Source: Nitrospira sp.
GTDB lineage: Bacteria > Nitrospirota > Nitrospiria > Nitrospirales > Nitrospiraceae
Direction: 5' to 3'
DNA: 64,000 nucleotides
NCBI GenBank assembly: GCA_024998595.1
Contig: JACOEK010000002.1
Span: forward strand, 682,001-746,000
This document shows positions 12,872 to 20,736 of this stretch, piece after piece. Below the pieces are notes generated by a model. The model ran no database searches and was not told the origin of the DNA. It saw only the letters and a list, made by a program, of their open reading frames with translations. Position 1 is the stretch's first letter. Every line of letters begins with the position of its first letter. A program made the position numbers and the translations under genes.

Positions 12872-13270
12872 TTACCGAAAATTGGCTTCGAGATCGGACT
12901 CTAACGTAAAGACGAAGATGCGCTCGCCGACCACCGTGTCGATGTCGGTGAACAACGCCATAATCTTGGCGCCGATCAGATCCGCCACCTGTTCACAGAG
13001 TCGTTCGCGTCCCTGGGCGATGAGGTTTTGACGCAGCCGCTTCACCATGTCGACGCCTTCGGCCGTTTTGGCCAATTGCCGCTCCGCCGGCGTGAGCACC
13101 CCTTTCAATCGCACGACCAGCATGTCGCGCACAATGAACACGCGGACCTCGTCGGGGCCACGGCCTAGAAATTCCTGTTCGAATTTGATGATCGCCGTGC
13201 GAACGGCGGCTTCTTTTTCTCCCTTACTGGGCGCAGGCACGATAATCTTTCTCCCTGATGGTACAGACAT
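12872..13270 (-). CDS. DUF2294 family protein
   Basis: 132 residues. It shows the DUF2294 pattern FEQEFLGRGPDEVRVFIVRDMLVV followed by LTPAERQLA and a C-terminal VVGERIFVFTL. The family is soluble and often sits near ion or CO2 transport genes; its function is not established. It lies 27 bp upstream of selO in the same direction and is probably co-transcribed with it. The divergent neighbour is the inorganic-carbon operon. The ATG at 13270 is preferred to a GTG 21 nt earlier. Confidence 0.8.
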   Translation of the reverse strand: MSVPSGRKIIVPAPSKGEKEAAVRTAIIKFEQEFLGRGPDEVRVFIVRDMLVVRLKGVLTPAERQLAKTAEGVDMVKRLRQNLIAQGRERLCEQVADLIGAKIMALFTDIDTVVGERIFVFTLESDLEANFR

Positions 13271-13402
13271 GGACGACCGGATTATAGTCACGGCCGCCTC
13301 AGGACTCCACCCCTATGGATGCCGGTACCAACACCCGGTCCCTCAGGCTATCGACCGAAGCCTGGTGCGCATACGCATTGGCCCGAATACGAGGAGTTTT
13401 CG

Positions 13403-13497: not shown

Positions 13498-13512
13498 AGA
13501 TGTAAGAGACAG
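13498..13512 (+). other. Tn5 mosaic-end-like 15-mer
   Basis: AGATGTAAGAGACAG equals the 19-bp Tn5/Nextera mosaic end with the internal GTAT missing. No transposase or second end is nearby. It may be chance or a trace of library adapter at an assembly join. I see no gene in 13271-13637 apart from this, the palindrome and the terminator. Confidence 0.3.
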
Positions 13513-13637: not shown

Positions 13638-15332
13638 ATGTCCTTCCTAGCCCTCGTCCCGCTGTTGCCGTTACTCACGGCCTTCATCGTGATGACCGGC
13701 GATCGAGCAGACCAGGAGCAGAACGCCCGCTCAGGCCTGTTCCCGATAGCGGCGTCCTTCTTTGGCTCCCTCATCATTTTGGTGACGGTGACCTCGGAAG
13801 GTCCGATCATGTTTCAACTCTATGATCCGGCCGCCATCGCCAATCTCGCCTTCCCGATCGGCGTCTACATCGACCGACTCAGCGCCGTCATGATGGTCCT
13901 GATTACAGGCGTGACCACGCTCATCTATCGTTATTCGATGGGTTACATGTATCAGGATCGCGGGTATCGACGGTATCTGGGAATGCTCGCCATCACCACG
14001 ACCATCCTGCTCTGCATGGTCTCCAGCGCCAACCTGGTGATGCTGTTCATTTTCTGGCAAATTCTCTCCTGGCTGTTGTTTCTGTTAGCCCACAATCACG
14101 GGCATGCGGCCACGCTGTCCGGCGCCTCCAATACGTTTACGACGTTGCGGCTCAGCGATGCGGCCTTCCTCGCAGGCATTGTCCTGGCCTATTCTCTCTA
14201 CGGCACGTTCGAGTTTCAGACGCTGTTCACCCGCGCCGCCGAGACACCGGTGACCTTGTCGATCTGGCCGGAACTCGGTTGGGACATGAACGGCTCCACT
14301 GCCGTGACCCTGCTCATTTTCGGTGGCGCCATGGGAAAATCGGCGCAATTCCCCATCCATACCTGGCTTCCGCGATCGCTGTACGCGCCGACCCCGATCC
14401 ACGCGCTGCTGCACGCCGGCATCATCAATGCCGGAGGGTTCCTGCTGAACCGGCTCGCCCCGCTCTACGGCCTGAGCCCGACGACACTGCATGTGGTCTT
14501 CGTCATCGGCATGCTCACGGCGGTCCTCGGCGCCACCATGATGTTGACGCAGAACGACATCAAGAAGACCCTGGGGTTCTCCACGATCGGACAGATGGGC
14601 TACATGATCATGGAGTGCGGGCTCGGCGCGTTTTCCCTCGCCGTCTTCCATCTCATCGCGCACGGCCTGTTCAAAGGCACAGTGTTCCTGAACTGCGGCA
14701 ACGTGATTCACAAGGCCCGCCAGGAACCTTCATTCCCGCCGATCGACCGCGAGACGGAGGAAAGCGAATTCTCCAACCTGACCTGGTCCACCGGGTTTTT
14801 CACGACCCTGTTGCTGCCGCTGGTCATTCTATTGGTCACGCACGGCGTGTTGCGCATTCCGCTGCTCGAGTCACAAGGAACGGTGATCTTCCTGTTCTTC
14901 ATCTGGGTCACCTCTTCGCAGGCAATCCTCTCACTGACGCGCATTCGGGCGGTAGCCTCCTGGAAGGTGTCCGCCGCCATGCTGGTGACGCTGGTGATCG
15001 TTGTCTTCACCTATCTGTTTGCCGTGGAGAGCTTCACCCATTTTCTGTACCCGAACCCTGAGGAAGTCGCCTTCTATTTCAAGGCTGCAGCACTCCCGGG
15101 ACGGCTGTTCGACAGTTTGGTGGTAGGCACGACGTTGTTGACGATTCTGAGCTGGATCTATCTGTACGCCCATGCTCATGGACGCTCGGTCACCATACCC
15201 GGTTGGATCGAGGCCTTCCTGCTCCGCCTGTACGTCCTGTTCATGAACCGGCTCTACCTCGATCAGCTCTATCTCACCATCGGTCGTGTCGTGACACAGG
15301 TCGCGCATCGCCTGGAGAAACGGCTCTCGTGA
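13638..15332 (+). CDS. dabB: DabB-like proton-conducting membrane subunit of the inorganic-carbon uptake complex
   Basis: 564 residues, about 14 membrane segments, related to NuoL/MrpA. Key channel residues are visible: K234 and H241 in MGKSAQFPIHTWLP and the His in IHALLHAGIINAGGFLLNR, plus Lys in NDIKKTLGFSTIGQMGYM. DabB couples ion flow to DabA, which converts CO2 to bicarbonate in the cytoplasm. The ATG at 13638 has GGAG 6 nt upstream; a longer frame from 13524 runs through the terminator and is rejected. First gene of the DAB operon. Confidence 0.9.
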   Translation: MSFLALVPLLPLLTAFIVMTGDRADQEQNARSGLFPIAASFFGSLIILVTVTSEGPIMFQLYDPAAIANLAFPIGVYIDRLSAVMMVLITGVTTLIYRYSMGYMYQDRGYRRYLGMLAITTTILLCMVSSANLVMLFIFWQILSWLLFLLAHNHGHAATLSGASNTFTTLRLSDAAFLAGIVLAYSLYGTFEFQTLFTRAAETPVTLSIWPELGWDMNGSTAVTLLIFGGAMGKSAQFPIHTWLPRSLYAPTPIHALLHAGIINAGGFLLNRLAPLYGLSPTTLHVVFVIGMLTAVLGATMMLTQNDIKKTLGFSTIGQMGYMIMECGLGAFSLAVFHLIAHGLFKGTVFLNCGNVIHKARQEPSFPPIDRETEESEFSNLTWSTGFFTTLLLPLVILLVTHGVLRIPLLESQGTVIFLFFIWVTSSQAILSLTRIRAVASWKVSAAMLVTLVIVVFTYLFAVESFTHFLYPNPEEVAFYFKAAALPGRLFDSLVVGTTLLTILSWIYLYAHAHGRSVTIPGWIEAFLLRLYVLFMNRLYLDQLYLTIGRVVTQVAHRLEKRLS

Positions 15333-15390
15333 CGAAACCAAGGCTGCTTCTCTGTCACGACCGCTCTGCGGCCGTCATCGGAGTGGGATC

Positions 15391-16698
15391 GTGATAGAGC
15401 CCTGGATGACACCCTGGCTTCTTCTGGCCATACCTGTTTTAGGCGCCAGCCTCGGCCTGCTGATGAGGGCCTCTCTTCAGCGCATGAAGGCCGTGGCCCT
15501 GGGGACTACGGGAGCAAGCCTGCTCGCCGTCATGGGCACATCCCTGGTGCAAAGCGAATCCACTGCTGCCATCTCTTTTCTCTGCCTGCTTCCGGCAACG
15601 GCGTTCCTCACGCTGCTTGGGCAGCCGTTGCACCGGGAGCACAGTTCAGCCTGGGTCATGACCTTGATCCTGCTCGGCGTGGCGCTGGGTATTCTCACCA
15701 GTCACGCCGCCGCGCGCGACCTCTTGCTCGTGCTGCTCCTTAGTATCGTGTGCGGCTTGCTGTATCGTCATCAACCGGGCTCCATGCCCGCAACCTGGCG
15801 GGGCATGTCGTCTTTCGGACTGGGCATTTTCTCCACCTTGATGGCGTTGGTCCTTCCGGCACCGGCTTCGACGCTCGCGTCGCTGGTCACCTGCGCGACG
15901 CTGCTGCCCCTCTTGCCCGTACACAGCGGATTCGTGGCGGCGCTGAGTGGACTGCCGGGTAATCTTCCTGCATTCCTGGCCTTTGTACTGCCGACAGTCG
16001 GATTCCATACCCTGTTGCTGCTGCTCCCCTCGCTCTCCACCACGATGCTCCACACAGTAGGCATTTTAGCGCTGGCCGGCGCCGTGTATGGTTCGCTGCG
16101 AGCCTTGATTCAGTCGCATCCGCTGCCTCGACTCGGATATGCCGCACTGGCCTTCTTCTGCATGCTCTGGTGGTACATTGCCGACACAGACACCGCCCCG
16201 GTCCAAGCCCTGGTCTATCTCAGCGCCGTGGGGCTCACCACCAGCGGGCTTTTGCTGGCTTGGTATGCCATTCGGGCGCGGTACGGGGATATCGATTTTC
16301 AAGCGCTCGGCGGTCTCGCCTACCCAATGCCTCGGTTCAGCACGTTGCTGGCGCTGCTGGCGCTAGCCGCCCTGGGCATGCCGCCATTCGGCGTTTTTTC
16401 CGGGTTCCTGGGAATGCTGCTGACGCCCGCATTTGCGCCGTCCGGCCCGTTCGCCATCATCATCCTCGTCTGGCTTACTGCCTCCTGGTACTACACCGAT
16501 CTGATCCAACAGGTGGTGTTCGGCAGGCCCCGCCTGGACCTGCGACATGAAGATTTGCGGCAGACGGAATTTATCTCCTTGCTCCTGGTGTTGCTGCTAC
16601 TCCTGATCCTGGGTACGGCCCCGTCTCGTGTGTTTGAGTCGCCCGCGGCCGGGCCTGCCGCTACGGTTGCCATGCAGGGTGAGACATGGACCCGATGA
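15391..16698 (+). CDS. Degenerate NuoM/NuoN-like membrane subunit, third component of the DAB operon
   Basis: 435 residues, about 12 membrane segments, starting at a GTG with GGAG 7 nt upstream. It resembles antiporter-like subunits in GLAYPMPRFSTLLALLALAALGMPPFGVFSGF. The helix-7/8 region reads LLPVHSGFVAALSGLPG...FVLPTVGFHTLL: a His (H178) is kept, but the conserved channel Lys is absent. It lies between dabB and dabA and overlaps dabA by 13 nt. Probably a structural or modified ion subunit; the standard two-gene DAB system lacks it. Confidence 0.75.
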   Translation: MIEPWMTPWLLLAIPVLGASLGLLMRASLQRMKAVALGTTGASLLAVMGTSLVQSESTAAISFLCLLPATAFLTLLGQPLHREHSSAWVMTLILLGVALGILTSHAAARDLLLVLLLSIVCGLLYRHQPGSMPATWRGMSSFGLGIFSTLMALVLPAPASTLASLVTCATLLPLLPVHSGFVAALSGLPGNLPAFLAFVLPTVGFHTLLLLLPSLSTTMLHTVGILALAGAVYGSLRALIQSHPLPRLGYAALAFFCMLWWYIADTDTAPVQALVYLSAVGLTTSGLLLAWYAIRARYGDIDFQALGGLAYPMPRFSTLLALLALAALGMPPFGVFSGFLGMLLTPAFAPSGPFAIIILVWLTASWYYTDLIQQVVFGRPRLDLRHEDLRQTEFISLLLVLLLLLILGTAPSRVFESPAAGPAATVAMQGETWTR

Positions 16699-19600
16699 TT
16701 CGTACCGACGACTCGACCGAGCTCGAAGCGCGCCGGATGGAGTTGCGAGGCATGATCCGGCTCGCCAGTGAAGTCATCGCGCAATATTGGCCCATGCGCA
16801 CCTTCGTGCACCACAATCCCCTGCACAGCCTCGAATATCTACCGTTTACCGAGACGGTCCGCCGTGGCCGGCAGTTCCTAGGCGGCAATGGATACCTTCC
16901 CGGCGACCTGTATCGGCGATATGTGAAAACAGGTCGGATCCTGGTCGGCCACATCGATGACGCATTGGCTTCGTTTGCGAAGGATGAAGACGTCGACCTC
17001 GGATCCTGCCGCATTTCACAGCGGGAGGTGTGGCGTGCCTGCCTGACTCATGGTCTCTCCCGGCCGGCAGAGGAACCGCTCGACCGCCTCATGGAACGCG
17101 AACCGATCGAGGAACAGGTGGATGCCCTCGCCGAGCGCCTCGTCGCCTTTGCCGCGCCGACCGTGCCGGAACGGATGGCCGCTATGGTTAGAGAGGATGT
17201 GGCCGCGCTGGGACGAGATCTGACGTTATCGAACTGGTGCGACCGGACGCTGGGCACCAAGATCGGAGAGCAGATCAACGGCGAACTGATCAAATGGTGC
17301 GAAGCTTTCCTGGACGAGGGCCACGCAACCTGGGCGATGCCGGGACGGCGCCAGGGGCTCTACACGGCCTGGAAACAGGTGGCTGCAAATGAGTGGGCGA
17401 CCTGCGGCATTACCGACAGCCGCCGAAAAATTGCTGCGCTGCCCGAGCATCCGGAAGACACGGTGTTCGACTGTCTTGAATCCTTGGCGATCCCGGCGGA
17501 GTTTCGGCAGGACTATCTCGCCCTCCAGCTCGCAGCGCTTCCCGGTTGGGCCGGTTTCATCAAATGGCGGGCCGAGGAAAACGACTATGCCTGGCAGCAG
17601 GCGTACCCCGTGGGCCTGGTGAAATTTCTCGCCGTGCGACTCTGGTATGTGCGCGAACTCGTCGAGAAAGTCTGTCAGGAAGAATTGGGCATCGAGGGCA
17701 ACTATCGCGCCGTGTTGCGCTTTATGGACCAGGAGTCCTCCGGATACTTCATGCGCAAGGAACGGGTCGCCGGCCGTTTGCCGGCTCCCTTTGCCGACCG
17801 GGTCGCGCGCCTGCACGCGCAATCGCGTGGTCAACAGAACAGGGTGACGCTCGCTCGCGAATGGGAGCAACTCACCCATCACTATCAGATCGAATTCGGC
17901 CCGCGCCGGGAACGGGCGGCGCAACGGGCGATGGCCAGACGCCTGCTCACGCTCGCCCACGCGCTTGAGATCGTACCCACCCTGTTGATGGACGCACCGC
18001 CGACCGCCCTCCTCCAGCTCCTCGACTGGATGGCCACGTTTCCGGAATCGGCGCATGGCCCGGTTTGGCTGAAGGCGTTTGAGGCAGGCTATCAGGATCA
18101 TCTGTTCGGCATGCTGCGGCGCGCGCCAACCAAACCGCAACCCGCCACGCCCGACGGTCAGCCGCCGGTCCGCCCCCATTCGCAATCGGTCTTTTGCATC
18201 GACGTGCGATCCGAGCCGTTCCGCCGTCACCTAGAATCGACGGGCGCCAACGAGACGTACGGCTTCGCGGGTTTTTTCGCCGCCCTCATTCGATATCGCG
18301 CGTGGGGCAAGGAGCATGAAACAGAGCAGTTTCCGGTCATCATGCGCGCCAAGAACGAGGTACGCGAAATTCCCCGCAGCTACTTGGATCATTACGTCTC
18401 CAAACACCAGTCGCGGGCCAAACTGGTCCATGCCGGCCATACGCTGCTACACGACTTGAAGGAAAACGTCGTCACTCCGTATGTGATGGTCGAATCACTC
18501 GGCTGGTTTTATGTCCTTCCGATGATGGGCAAGACCTTCCTGCCAGCCTGGTACAAACGATTGACCAGCTGGATTCGCCGGTTGTTCGTCCCGCCGATCG
18601 CCACCATTTTAACCGTCGACAAGCTAGCTCCGGCTGAAACTGAAGAAATGGTGGTGTCCGAGCAACGCGCGCTGATCTGGAAGGCCTTACGCGACCGACT
18701 TGGCCTGCATGGTTCGCGAGTCGAGGCCCAATTTGTCGAAGCCCTGCGACGGCGGGCCCTGGACGAGGACGCGCCCGTGGAGCCCTTTCTGAGCGAGGCC
18801 GCCCGGGCGGTCGATCTGTCAAACGAACAACTGACCACGTTCCTCGACGAACTGCGGCGGCATTATCGGATCAACCGGCGCGCAGCCTCGCGCCAGAAAG
18901 AACGCATTACCCGCACCGGATTTACTCTCGAAGAGCAGGTCATGACCCTCGAGACGGCCTTGCGCATGATGGGACTGGTGCGAAATTTCGCCCGGCTCGT
19001 GCTCTTCTGCGCCCATGGCAGCACGACGGAGAACAATCCGTTCGAGTCGGCGCTGGACTGCGGCGCCTGCGGCGGGAACGAAGGCAAACCGAATGCGCGC
19101 GTTCTGGCGGCGATGGCCAATCGCGCCCCGGTGCGCGAACGGCTGGCAAAACGCGGCATCGTCATTCCGTCGGATACGCACTTCCTTGCCGGGCAGATTG
19201 ATACCACGACCGATGAGGTGCAGCTCTTCGATCTCGAAGACGCACCCCCGACCCACCGGAAAGATGTGGCTCGCCTGTACGACGATTTACGGGAAGCCGG
19301 ACAACTCACCAGCCAGGAGCGCTGTACCAGATTTCCCGATGTCGGCGCCGTCCTGCCGTTCGACAAGGCATCGGGCCATGTCGCCGCAAGAAGCGCGGAC
19401 TGGAGTCAGGTGCGGCCCGAATGGGGTCTATCCGGAAATACGGCCTTTATCATCGGGCGGCGGGAATTGACGAAGGGGCTGAATCTTTCCGGGCGCGTCT
19501 TTCTGCAATCTTACGATTATCGCGAAGACCCGACGGATCGATGGCTGGAAGTGCTCCTCACCGCCCCGCAGGTCGTGGCGCAGTGGATCAACATGGAGCA

Positions 19601-19952
19601 TTATTTTTCAGCCGTGGATAACGATGTGTACGGAAGCGGAAGCAAGATCTATCACAATGTCGTCGGCCGCATCGGGATCATGTCCGGCCCCTGGAGCGAT
19701 CTTCGTCTCGGCCTGGCCTGGCAAACCGTCATGAACGACGAGTTGCCCTACCATGAACCGATGCGCTTGATGACGCTGGTCGAAGCCTCTCGACCGCGGA
19801 TCGAAAAACTCATCGCGCGGCATGAGATCTTGCAACATTTCTATCACAACGAGTGGGTCCACCTGGCCGCGCTGGATCCTGAGGACGGCACCTGGTATCG
19901 CTACATGCCGTCGGGGGTGTGGCGCAGGGTCAAGCATCCCAGTGAGGCCTAA
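16686..19952 (+). CDS. dabA: DabA (DUF2309), carbonic-anhydrase-like subunit of the inorganic-carbon pump
   Basis: 1088 residues, longer than the about 830-residue DabA2 type. The zinc-site residues line up with characterised DabA: C504 and D506 in SVFCIDVRSEP, then H777 in FCAHGST and C792 in LDCGACGG. The 15-residue His-Cys spacing matches that of Halothiobacillus DabA2 (H524, C539). DabA is a membrane-associated beta-carbonic-anhydrase-like protein driven one-way by DabB. GGTGAGAC precedes the ATG; it overlaps the preceding gene by 13 nt. Confidence 0.94.
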   Translation: MDPMIRTDDSTELEARRMELRGMIRLASEVIAQYWPMRTFVHHNPLHSLEYLPFTETVRRGRQFLGGNGYLPGDLYRRYVKTGRILVGHIDDALASFAKDEDVDLGSCRISQREVWRACLTHGLSRPAEEPLDRLMEREPIEEQVDALAERLVAFAAPTVPERMAAMVREDVAALGRDLTLSNWCDRTLGTKIGEQINGELIKWCEAFLDEGHATWAMPGRRQGLYTAWKQVAANEWATCGITDSRRKIAALPEHPEDTVFDCLESLAIPAEFRQDYLALQLAALPGWAGFIKWRAEENDYAWQQAYPVGLVKFLAVRLWYVRELVEKVCQEELGIEGNYRAVLRFMDQESSGYFMRKERVAGRLPAPFADRVARLHAQSRGQQNRVTLAREWEQLTHHYQIEFGPRRERAAQRAMARRLLTLAHALEIVPTLLMDAPPTALLQLLDWMATFPESAHGPVWLKAFEAGYQDHLFGMLRRAPTKPQPATPDGQPPVRPHSQSVFCIDVRSEPFRRHLESTGANETYGFAGFFAALIRYRAWGKEHETEQFPVIMRAKNEVREIPRSYLDHYVSKHQSRAKLVHAGHTLLHDLKENVVTPYVMVESLGWFYVLPMMGKTFLPAWYKRLTSWIRRLFVPPIATILTVDKLAPAETEEMVVSEQRALIWKALRDRLGLHGSRVEAQFVEALRRRALDEDAPVEPFLSEAARAVDLSNEQLTTFLDELRRHYRINRRAASRQKERITRTGFTLEEQVMTLETALRMMGLVRNFARLVLFCAHGSTTENNPFESALDCGACGGNEGKPNARVLAAMANRAPVRERLAKRGIVIPSDTHFLAGQIDTTTDEVQLFDLEDAPPTHRKDVARLYDDLREAGQLTSQERCTRFPDVGAVLPFDKASGHVAARSADWSQVRPEWGLSGNTAFIIGRRELTKGLNLSGRVFLQSYDYREDPTDRWLEVLLTAPQVVAQWINMEHYFSAVDNDVYGSGSKIYHNVVGRIGIMSGPWSDLRLGLAWQTVMNDELPYHEPMRLMTLVEASRPRIEKLIARHEILQHFYHNEWVHLAALDPEDGTWYRYMPSGVWRRVKHPSEA

Positions 19953-20009
19953 CTAGCCGGAGACACGCTCGTTGCCACATACGACGATCACTTTCAAAGG
20001 AGTCGAGAC

Positions 20010-20351
20010 ATGGCCGCACTCACGTTGCATCCCATGAAGGAAATTCGCGTCATCGTGTCCGGAGAGCATCGGCCGTTCGTCACGGAACTGCTGGACAAGG
20101 TCGAAGCGACCGGGTACACAATCATCGGCAACATCTCCGGGAAGGGGCACCATGGCGTACGCGAGGCGCACTTCATGTTCAGCGAGCAGGAAAGCCTGGT
20201 CATGATCATGGCTGTGGTACCGGCGGAAAAGGTGGAACCGGTGTTGGCCGGGTTACGGCCGTTGTTCGACCGCCACTCAGGAGTCATGTTCGTGTCTGAT
20301 GTGTCCGTCAGCCGGCGTGAATATTTCGGAAAGAAGAGCGCCAAATCCTGA
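20010..20351 (+). CDS. P-II-like regulatory protein of the DAB operon
   Basis: 113 residues with a ferredoxin-like betaalphabeta pattern (MKEIRVIVSGEHRPFVTELLDK, then AHFMFSEQESLVMIMAVV, then PVLAGLRPLFDRHSGVMFV). It resembles P-II/CutA-like proteins found next to dabA and other bicarbonate pumps. The uridylylation T-loop Tyr of GlnB is not apparent, so it probably senses nucleotides or bicarbonate directly, as SbtB does; this is inference. AAAGGAG precedes the ATG; 57 bp after dabA. Confidence 0.78.
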   Translation: MAALTLHPMKEIRVIVSGEHRPFVTELLDKVEATGYTIIGNISGKGHHGVREAHFMFSEQESLVMIMAVVPAEKVEPVLAGLRPLFDRHSGVMFVSDVSVSRREYFGKKSAKS

Positions 20352-20466: not shown

Positions 20467-20736
20467 GTGAAGGGACTACGGTTCGAACGGCTCGGGCGCG
20501 ATCGCCACTACAACATCATTTTCCACATCGGTACCAGCTACGTCCCGGTGAGCGACGAGACCCTCGACGAACTGAAGGCCCAAAGCCTCCTGTCCTCCGA
20601 ACGTTTTCTCGACCTGCTCATCGACAAAATCGGCTACACCAACTACCTCAAAGAACAGATCCGCGCGGAACTCCAAGCATCCGGTGACCCCATGACCCAG
20701 ATGACCGTCCTGCAGGGCGCGATCCGGGAACTGTAA
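20467..20736 (+). CDS. Small hypothetical protein
   Basis: 89 residues, GTG start preceded by AGGAAGG. No Cys, no membrane segment. The N-terminal half looks beta-rich (RHYNIIFHIGTSYVPVSDETLDEL) and the C-terminal half helical (SERFLDLLIDKIGYTNYLKEQIRAEL). The sense frame has good codon bias and a promoter-like sequence upstream. I do not recognise the family. Confidence 0.6.
   Translation: MKGLRFERLGRDRHYNIIFHIGTSYVPVSDETLDELKAQSLLSSERFLDLLIDKIGYTNYLKEQIRAELQASGDPMTQMTVLQGAIREL

Follow-up and report, generated by a model that had tools for sequence, protein, structure and literature searches.

DAB2 of Halothiobacillus neapolitanus has been described as a proton-driven one-way carbonic anhydrase in which DabB2 and the finger motif of DabA2 form a putative proton path, Glu444 of that finger being essential (PMC13144422). 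The same 2026 paper on the DAB2 structure describes DAB1 of this organism as a three-subunit DAC that includes a small TM protein, hneap_0908 (PMC13144422), and the plasmid pFA-DAB1 of the 2020 reconstitution paper, which complements CA-free E. coli, carries dabAB1 together with an "unnamed interstitial gene (mrpA family)" (PMC7714395). Among YbcC/NuoL operons, COGNAT clade B has a NuoL-like gene followed by ybcC, with a P-II gene at the 3' end, and the passages of its description consulted here make no mention of a middle gene (PMC5700660). The operon analysed here, which lies in a 64,000-nucleotide stretch of Nitrospira sp. DNA (hereafter the window), is best placed among the DAB1 systems, as one from Nitrospirota whose middle subunit is longer. 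Its kind is thus already published, and the original prediction for this locus started from a wrong premise, namely that a standard DAB consists of DabA and DabB only. What is new is the unification of the middle proteins in one family, their loss of channel residues, natural fusions of DabB to the middle protein, about two losses of the gene, and a conserved mpsC-family neighbour.

Re-derivation of the coordinates (Table 1) reproduced the open reading frames, their order and lengths, and the overlap of the middle gene with dabA as originally given, and a P-II-like gene indeed follows dabA. DabB matches PF00361 with 161 bits and DabB2 (9rd0_B) with 116.5 bits; it keeps K234 (GKSAQ), D174, R171, K309/K310, H338, H342 and K346, the motifs GKSAQ, NDIKK and HLIAHGLFKG are present, and the TM5 Glu is replaced by Q141. 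DabA is long, as had been claimed, and retains all four zinc-site residues (C504, D506, H777 and C792), and the His and the Cys after it lie 15 positions apart, as they do in DabA2. Because E603 matches Glu444 of the DabA2 finger and the zinc site is intact, the DAB2 mechanism is the default here. The 89-residue ORF behind the P-II gene is kept at that place in the genus and in much of the family. Upstream of dabB, positions 13498-13512 read AGATGTAAGAGACAG, which resembles a shortened Tn5 mosaic end; this stretch is absent from every other locus fetched and may be due to chance.

Table 1. Features of the dab operon and its flanks (window positions)
Feature	Position	Strand	Remark
mpsC-family gene (PF10057/DUF2294)	12872..13291	-	divergent from dab operon; Pfam 123 bits
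dabB (MpsA/NuoL-like), 564 aa, start ATG 13638	13638..15332	+	Pfam PF00361+PF00662
middle gene, 435 aa, start GTG 15391, NuoM-derived, channel residues absent	15391..16698	+	
middle gene, N-terminal region (residues 1-156), ~5-6 predicted helices, low confidence	15391..15858	+	
middle gene, core domain (residues 157-413), NuoM/ND4 TM7-14 fold	15859..16629	+	
overlap of middle gene and dabA, 13 nt	16686..16698	+	
dabA (PF10070, 875 bits), 1088 aa, long type, start ATG 16686	16686..19952	+	
E603 codon in dabA, corresponding to finger-motif Glu444 of H. neapolitanus DabA2	18492..18494	+	alignment
P-II-like gene, 113 aa, start ATG 20010	20010..20351	+	PF00543 80 bits
ORF of 89 aa, family not recognised	20467..20736	+	behind P-II

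A Pfam search gave no match for the middle protein; the NCBIfam model NDH_I_M matches its residues 162-416 (3.7e-19), and a NuoM profile matches residues 165-419 at 98.8% (E 1.4e-16). Reversed and shuffled controls stayed under 1%, both for this match and for the profile matches of the ~250-aa proteins described below. An AlphaFold2 model, made without Nitrospirota alignment rows, is confident for residues ~157-413, a C-terminal part of 257 residues, and these match TM7-14 of NuoM/ND4 (7qsd_M) with a Z score of 29.4 over 256 residues at 2.3 A. The N-terminal 156 residues were modelled poorly (pLDDT mostly 40-55) because Nitrospirota rows had been left out; this region is missing in the ~250-aa Proteobacterial form and mostly missing in the DabB fusions. 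The position of the NuoM TM7 Lys is taken by T202 and is T, A, V, S, M or L, never K, in 28 long homologues, and that of the TM12 Glu is taken by F339 and is F, L or I, never acidic, in 28 homologues. At the TM8 Lys position, 9 of the 28 long homologues have Arg and none has Lys. K33 is the single Lys in all 435 residues, leaving the core without any, and neither an acidic residue nor a Lys is conserved within the membrane. The original claim that the channel Lys is lacking was, if anything, understated. With both the TM7 Lys and the TM12 Glu missing, the middle protein is a NuoM relative, not a NuoM. To judge by a dN/dS of ~0.12-0.18 against five congeners, its gene is under purifying selection.

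Across 61 genomes, comprising the genome of origin and 60 relatives, DabA occurs in 53 and the middle gene in 45; the middle gene was never seen without DabA (0/61), DabA without the middle gene was seen in eight, and in every one of the 35 neighbourhoods retrieved through the middle gene, dabA follows it directly. This conserved synteny and the low dN/dS speak against a chance arrangement. The genome of origin also has a second operon (contig C15:574001-594000, L001/L065) of the order DabB-DabA-P-II without a middle gene, and both designs therefore coexist in one cell. A weak mpsC paralogue lies ~5 kb from this second operon.

A scan based on a DabA alignment found 80 Proteobacterial loci, including those of a Halothiobacillus neapolitanus MAG, Guyparkeria, Thiobacillus, Nitrosomonas eutropha and Nitrococcus. 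The order DabB, a protein of ~242-267 aa, DabA parses cleanly in 74 of the 80, with P-II next in nearly all and overlaps of 10-16 nt between the middle gene and dabA in most operons; Thiothrix caldifontis (L152) is the only clear case in which dabB stands immediately before dabA. Plasmid 1 of Nitrobacter hamburgensis carries, twice in tandem, DabB, a 253-aa hypothetical protein with a 16-nt overlap into DabA, DabA itself (1037 aa) and P-II. In profile comparisons, residues 165-412 of the middle protein from Nitrospirota are matched by the ~250-aa proteins (98.8-99.2%, E 5e-17 to 8e-20; best match 99.2%, E 7.9e-20), and the AlphaFold2 model of this form has a pLDDT of 91 and a Z score of 28.2 to ND4 TM7-14. 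The ~250-aa proteins are thus homologous to the C-terminal part of the Nitrospirota middle protein. By its position and by a MAG that carries the same species name, rather than by the type-strain sequence, hneap_0908 is probably a homologue as well. In three further loci, no DabB could be recognised beside a long DabA gene within the stretch fetched (L189, 2601-5891; L199, 11902-15441; L200, 1959-5234). One candidate locus, L184 (G129), was set aside because it has the look of a NuoL-NuoM pair of the ordinary sort.

DabB is fused to the middle core in ten complete ORFs (~806-1034 aa) from more distant Nitrospirota, the middle part starting at residue 135-163 of the long form, or in one at 197; two further fusions are partial (L171, at a contig edge, and L055, with a broken dabB). 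The fusions group together as a single clade in the tree of DabA (SH-aLRT 99%), and they are strong evidence, the best obtained here, that the middle protein would sit with DabB. Together with the strict dabB-middle-dabA synteny, they support the enlarged complex that had been predicted, although its kind was already known from DAB1. On the same tree, a quick one with a midpoint root and long outgroup branches, the rows with a middle gene, from both phyla, share one group of 58 rows (SH-aLRT 85), which also contains the clade of middle-less second operons and Thiothrix. The fewest presence/absence changes of the middle gene on this tree are three; with the two-subunit DabAs outside, the pattern would fit one gain and about two losses, subject to the rooting and the long outgroup branches. 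Some DABs of the clade evidently do without the subunit, since it is absent from the second operon (L065) and from Thiothrix (L152).

The best solved match of the P-II-like protein is 5d4n/5d4l (119 bits, E 5.5e-34), which we take to be CPII of Thiomonas intermedia, a protein that, by the title of its paper, is reportedly regulated by bicarbonate. The extra control that had been suggested is plausible, but it is not special, as P-II at the 3' end has been published for COGNAT clade B (PMC5700660). On the other flank, the original prediction had missed the mpsC-family gene. Of the 61 genomes, 47 have a PF10057 match, and in the majority of these it is close to a dab operon. Nearly all the Nitrospiraceae relatives fetched have the gene where the window has it, and other families of the phylum also have it near dab; in the genus it is divergent and upstream of the operon, and in some fusion loci it is upstream but shares the strand of dab. 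An mpsC-family gene adjoins dab operons across Nitrospirota (the window, L033-L068, L169, L172, L173, L179 and L183), and none was found in the Proteobacterial loci examined. It has been stated that mpsC lies beside mpsAB only in staphylococci, where its deletion in S. aureus gave no growth phenotype (PMC6689103); the Nitrospirota genomes are counterexamples to that restriction.

How might the middle subunit contribute to such a pump? We consider it likely that the operon encodes a DAB1-type three-subunit DIC-accumulating complex, a proton-driven carbonic anhydrase with a non-conducting, NuoM-derived subunit of structural or coupling function. This reading builds on the homology, predicted fold, loss of channel residues, synteny and fusions that we observed. 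DabB would serve as a NuoL-like proton channel, and DabA as a zinc carbonic anhydrase whose one-way CO2 hydration would be driven by protons via DabB and the DabA finger, by extension from the DAB2 structure and mutants. The middle protein, apparently derived from NuoM by reduction to a TM7-14 core with a variable N-terminus, would pack beside DabB, probably as NuoM does beside NuoL; the half of NuoM that it keeps is the one that faces NuoL in complex I. It would carry no ions of its own and would most likely stabilise or brace DabB and tune its coupling to DabA, and the P-II protein would most likely regulate the pump. Tentatively, and with somewhat less than even confidence, we envision that DAB1 pumps rebuilt the distal NuoL-NuoM pair around a carbonic anhydrase, and that the NuoM partner ceased to conduct ions and became a fixed coupling or gating subunit that was joined covalently to DabB in one Nitrospirota lineage.

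Alternatively, the middle protein may serve in assembly or stability, or offer P-II a place to dock, and not be a permanent working subunit. Its loss in some lineages and its lack of a conserved membrane-embedded acidic residue or Lys would accord with such a role, as would the fact that DAB2 works with two subunits (PMC13144422), but a covalent fusion to DabB throughout a whole clade makes a transient factor unlikely, and we regard this alternative as rather improbable. The original prediction had also raised the possibility of a different coupling ion. Descent from the NuoM antiporter-like family is what would lead one to expect conduction by the middle protein, be it as a second ion path or with another ion for the pump; yet the TM7 and TM12 positions have lost their charge throughout the homologues, one Lys remains in the protein and none in its core, and DabB retains the normal conducting set. 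A second path through the middle protein was rejected on these residues, and ion conduction by it seems very unlikely altogether. That the operon has merely trapped a complex I gene, of which a neutral remnant is left, is scarcely credible: degenerate as the protein is relative to NuoM, such a reading is contradicted by the constraint seen in dN/dS, by the occupation of the same slot across two phyla and by the fusions to DabB. Taken as a whole, the original interpretation is partly supported, and the three-subunit complex with a non-conducting middle subunit is the reading that we prefer.

In the genome of origin (G000; 4.23 Mb, 15 contigs, 99% complete), Pfam searches of this 99% complete assembly found neither an alpha- nor a beta-carbonic anhydrase (PF00194, PF00484), and the RuBisCO large subunit (PF00016) was not found either, so the DABs may be its main source of bicarbonate outside the Calvin cycle. 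More generally, the third DAB1 subunit, published as an unnamed or hypothetical gene, can now be placed as a channel-dead half of NuoM, and the two-subunit DAB2 whose structure is solved shows only part of the design. The natural fusions of DabB to the middle protein are ready-made constructs that give the third subunit a testable role, in pumps that are of interest for the engineering of CO2 uptake.

Comparison with known systems places the locus as follows. With complex I NuoM/ND4 the middle protein shares the fold of TM7-14, whereas the channel residues are lost and the first half is reduced or absent. Cyanobacterial NDH-1MS (CupA, NdhF3 and NdhD3) similarly sets a carbonic-anhydrase-like subunit on a NuoL-like and NuoM-like pair; that complex is redox-driven, and we draw an analogy only, without claiming membership. 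The NuoL-like gene, ybcC and 3' P-II correspond to COGNAT clade B, unlike clade C, which has NuoM (COG1008) neighbours but ybcC upstream (PMC5700660). DAB2 of H. neapolitanus (PDB 9rd0) and MpsAB of S. aureus have homologous DabA and DabB proteins, and the zinc site and Glu444 are shared with DAB2, but both systems have two subunits and DabA2 is shorter (870-residue chain). In MpsABC, mpsC follows mpsAB in the same direction, whereas the PF10057 gene is divergent and upstream here. Compared with the DAB1-type Proteobacterial loci examined, the mpsC-family gene is an addition, and the middle protein has 435 residues against 250 in DAB1; a further difference from DAB1 is that the genome of origin yielded no RuBisCO. 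It is nevertheless DAB1 of H. neapolitanus (hneap_0907-0909) that the operon most plainly resembles, in the order DabB, TM protein, DabA, in a probably homologous middle protein, and in the P-II gene behind dabA, as seen in the H. neapolitanus MAG (L111).
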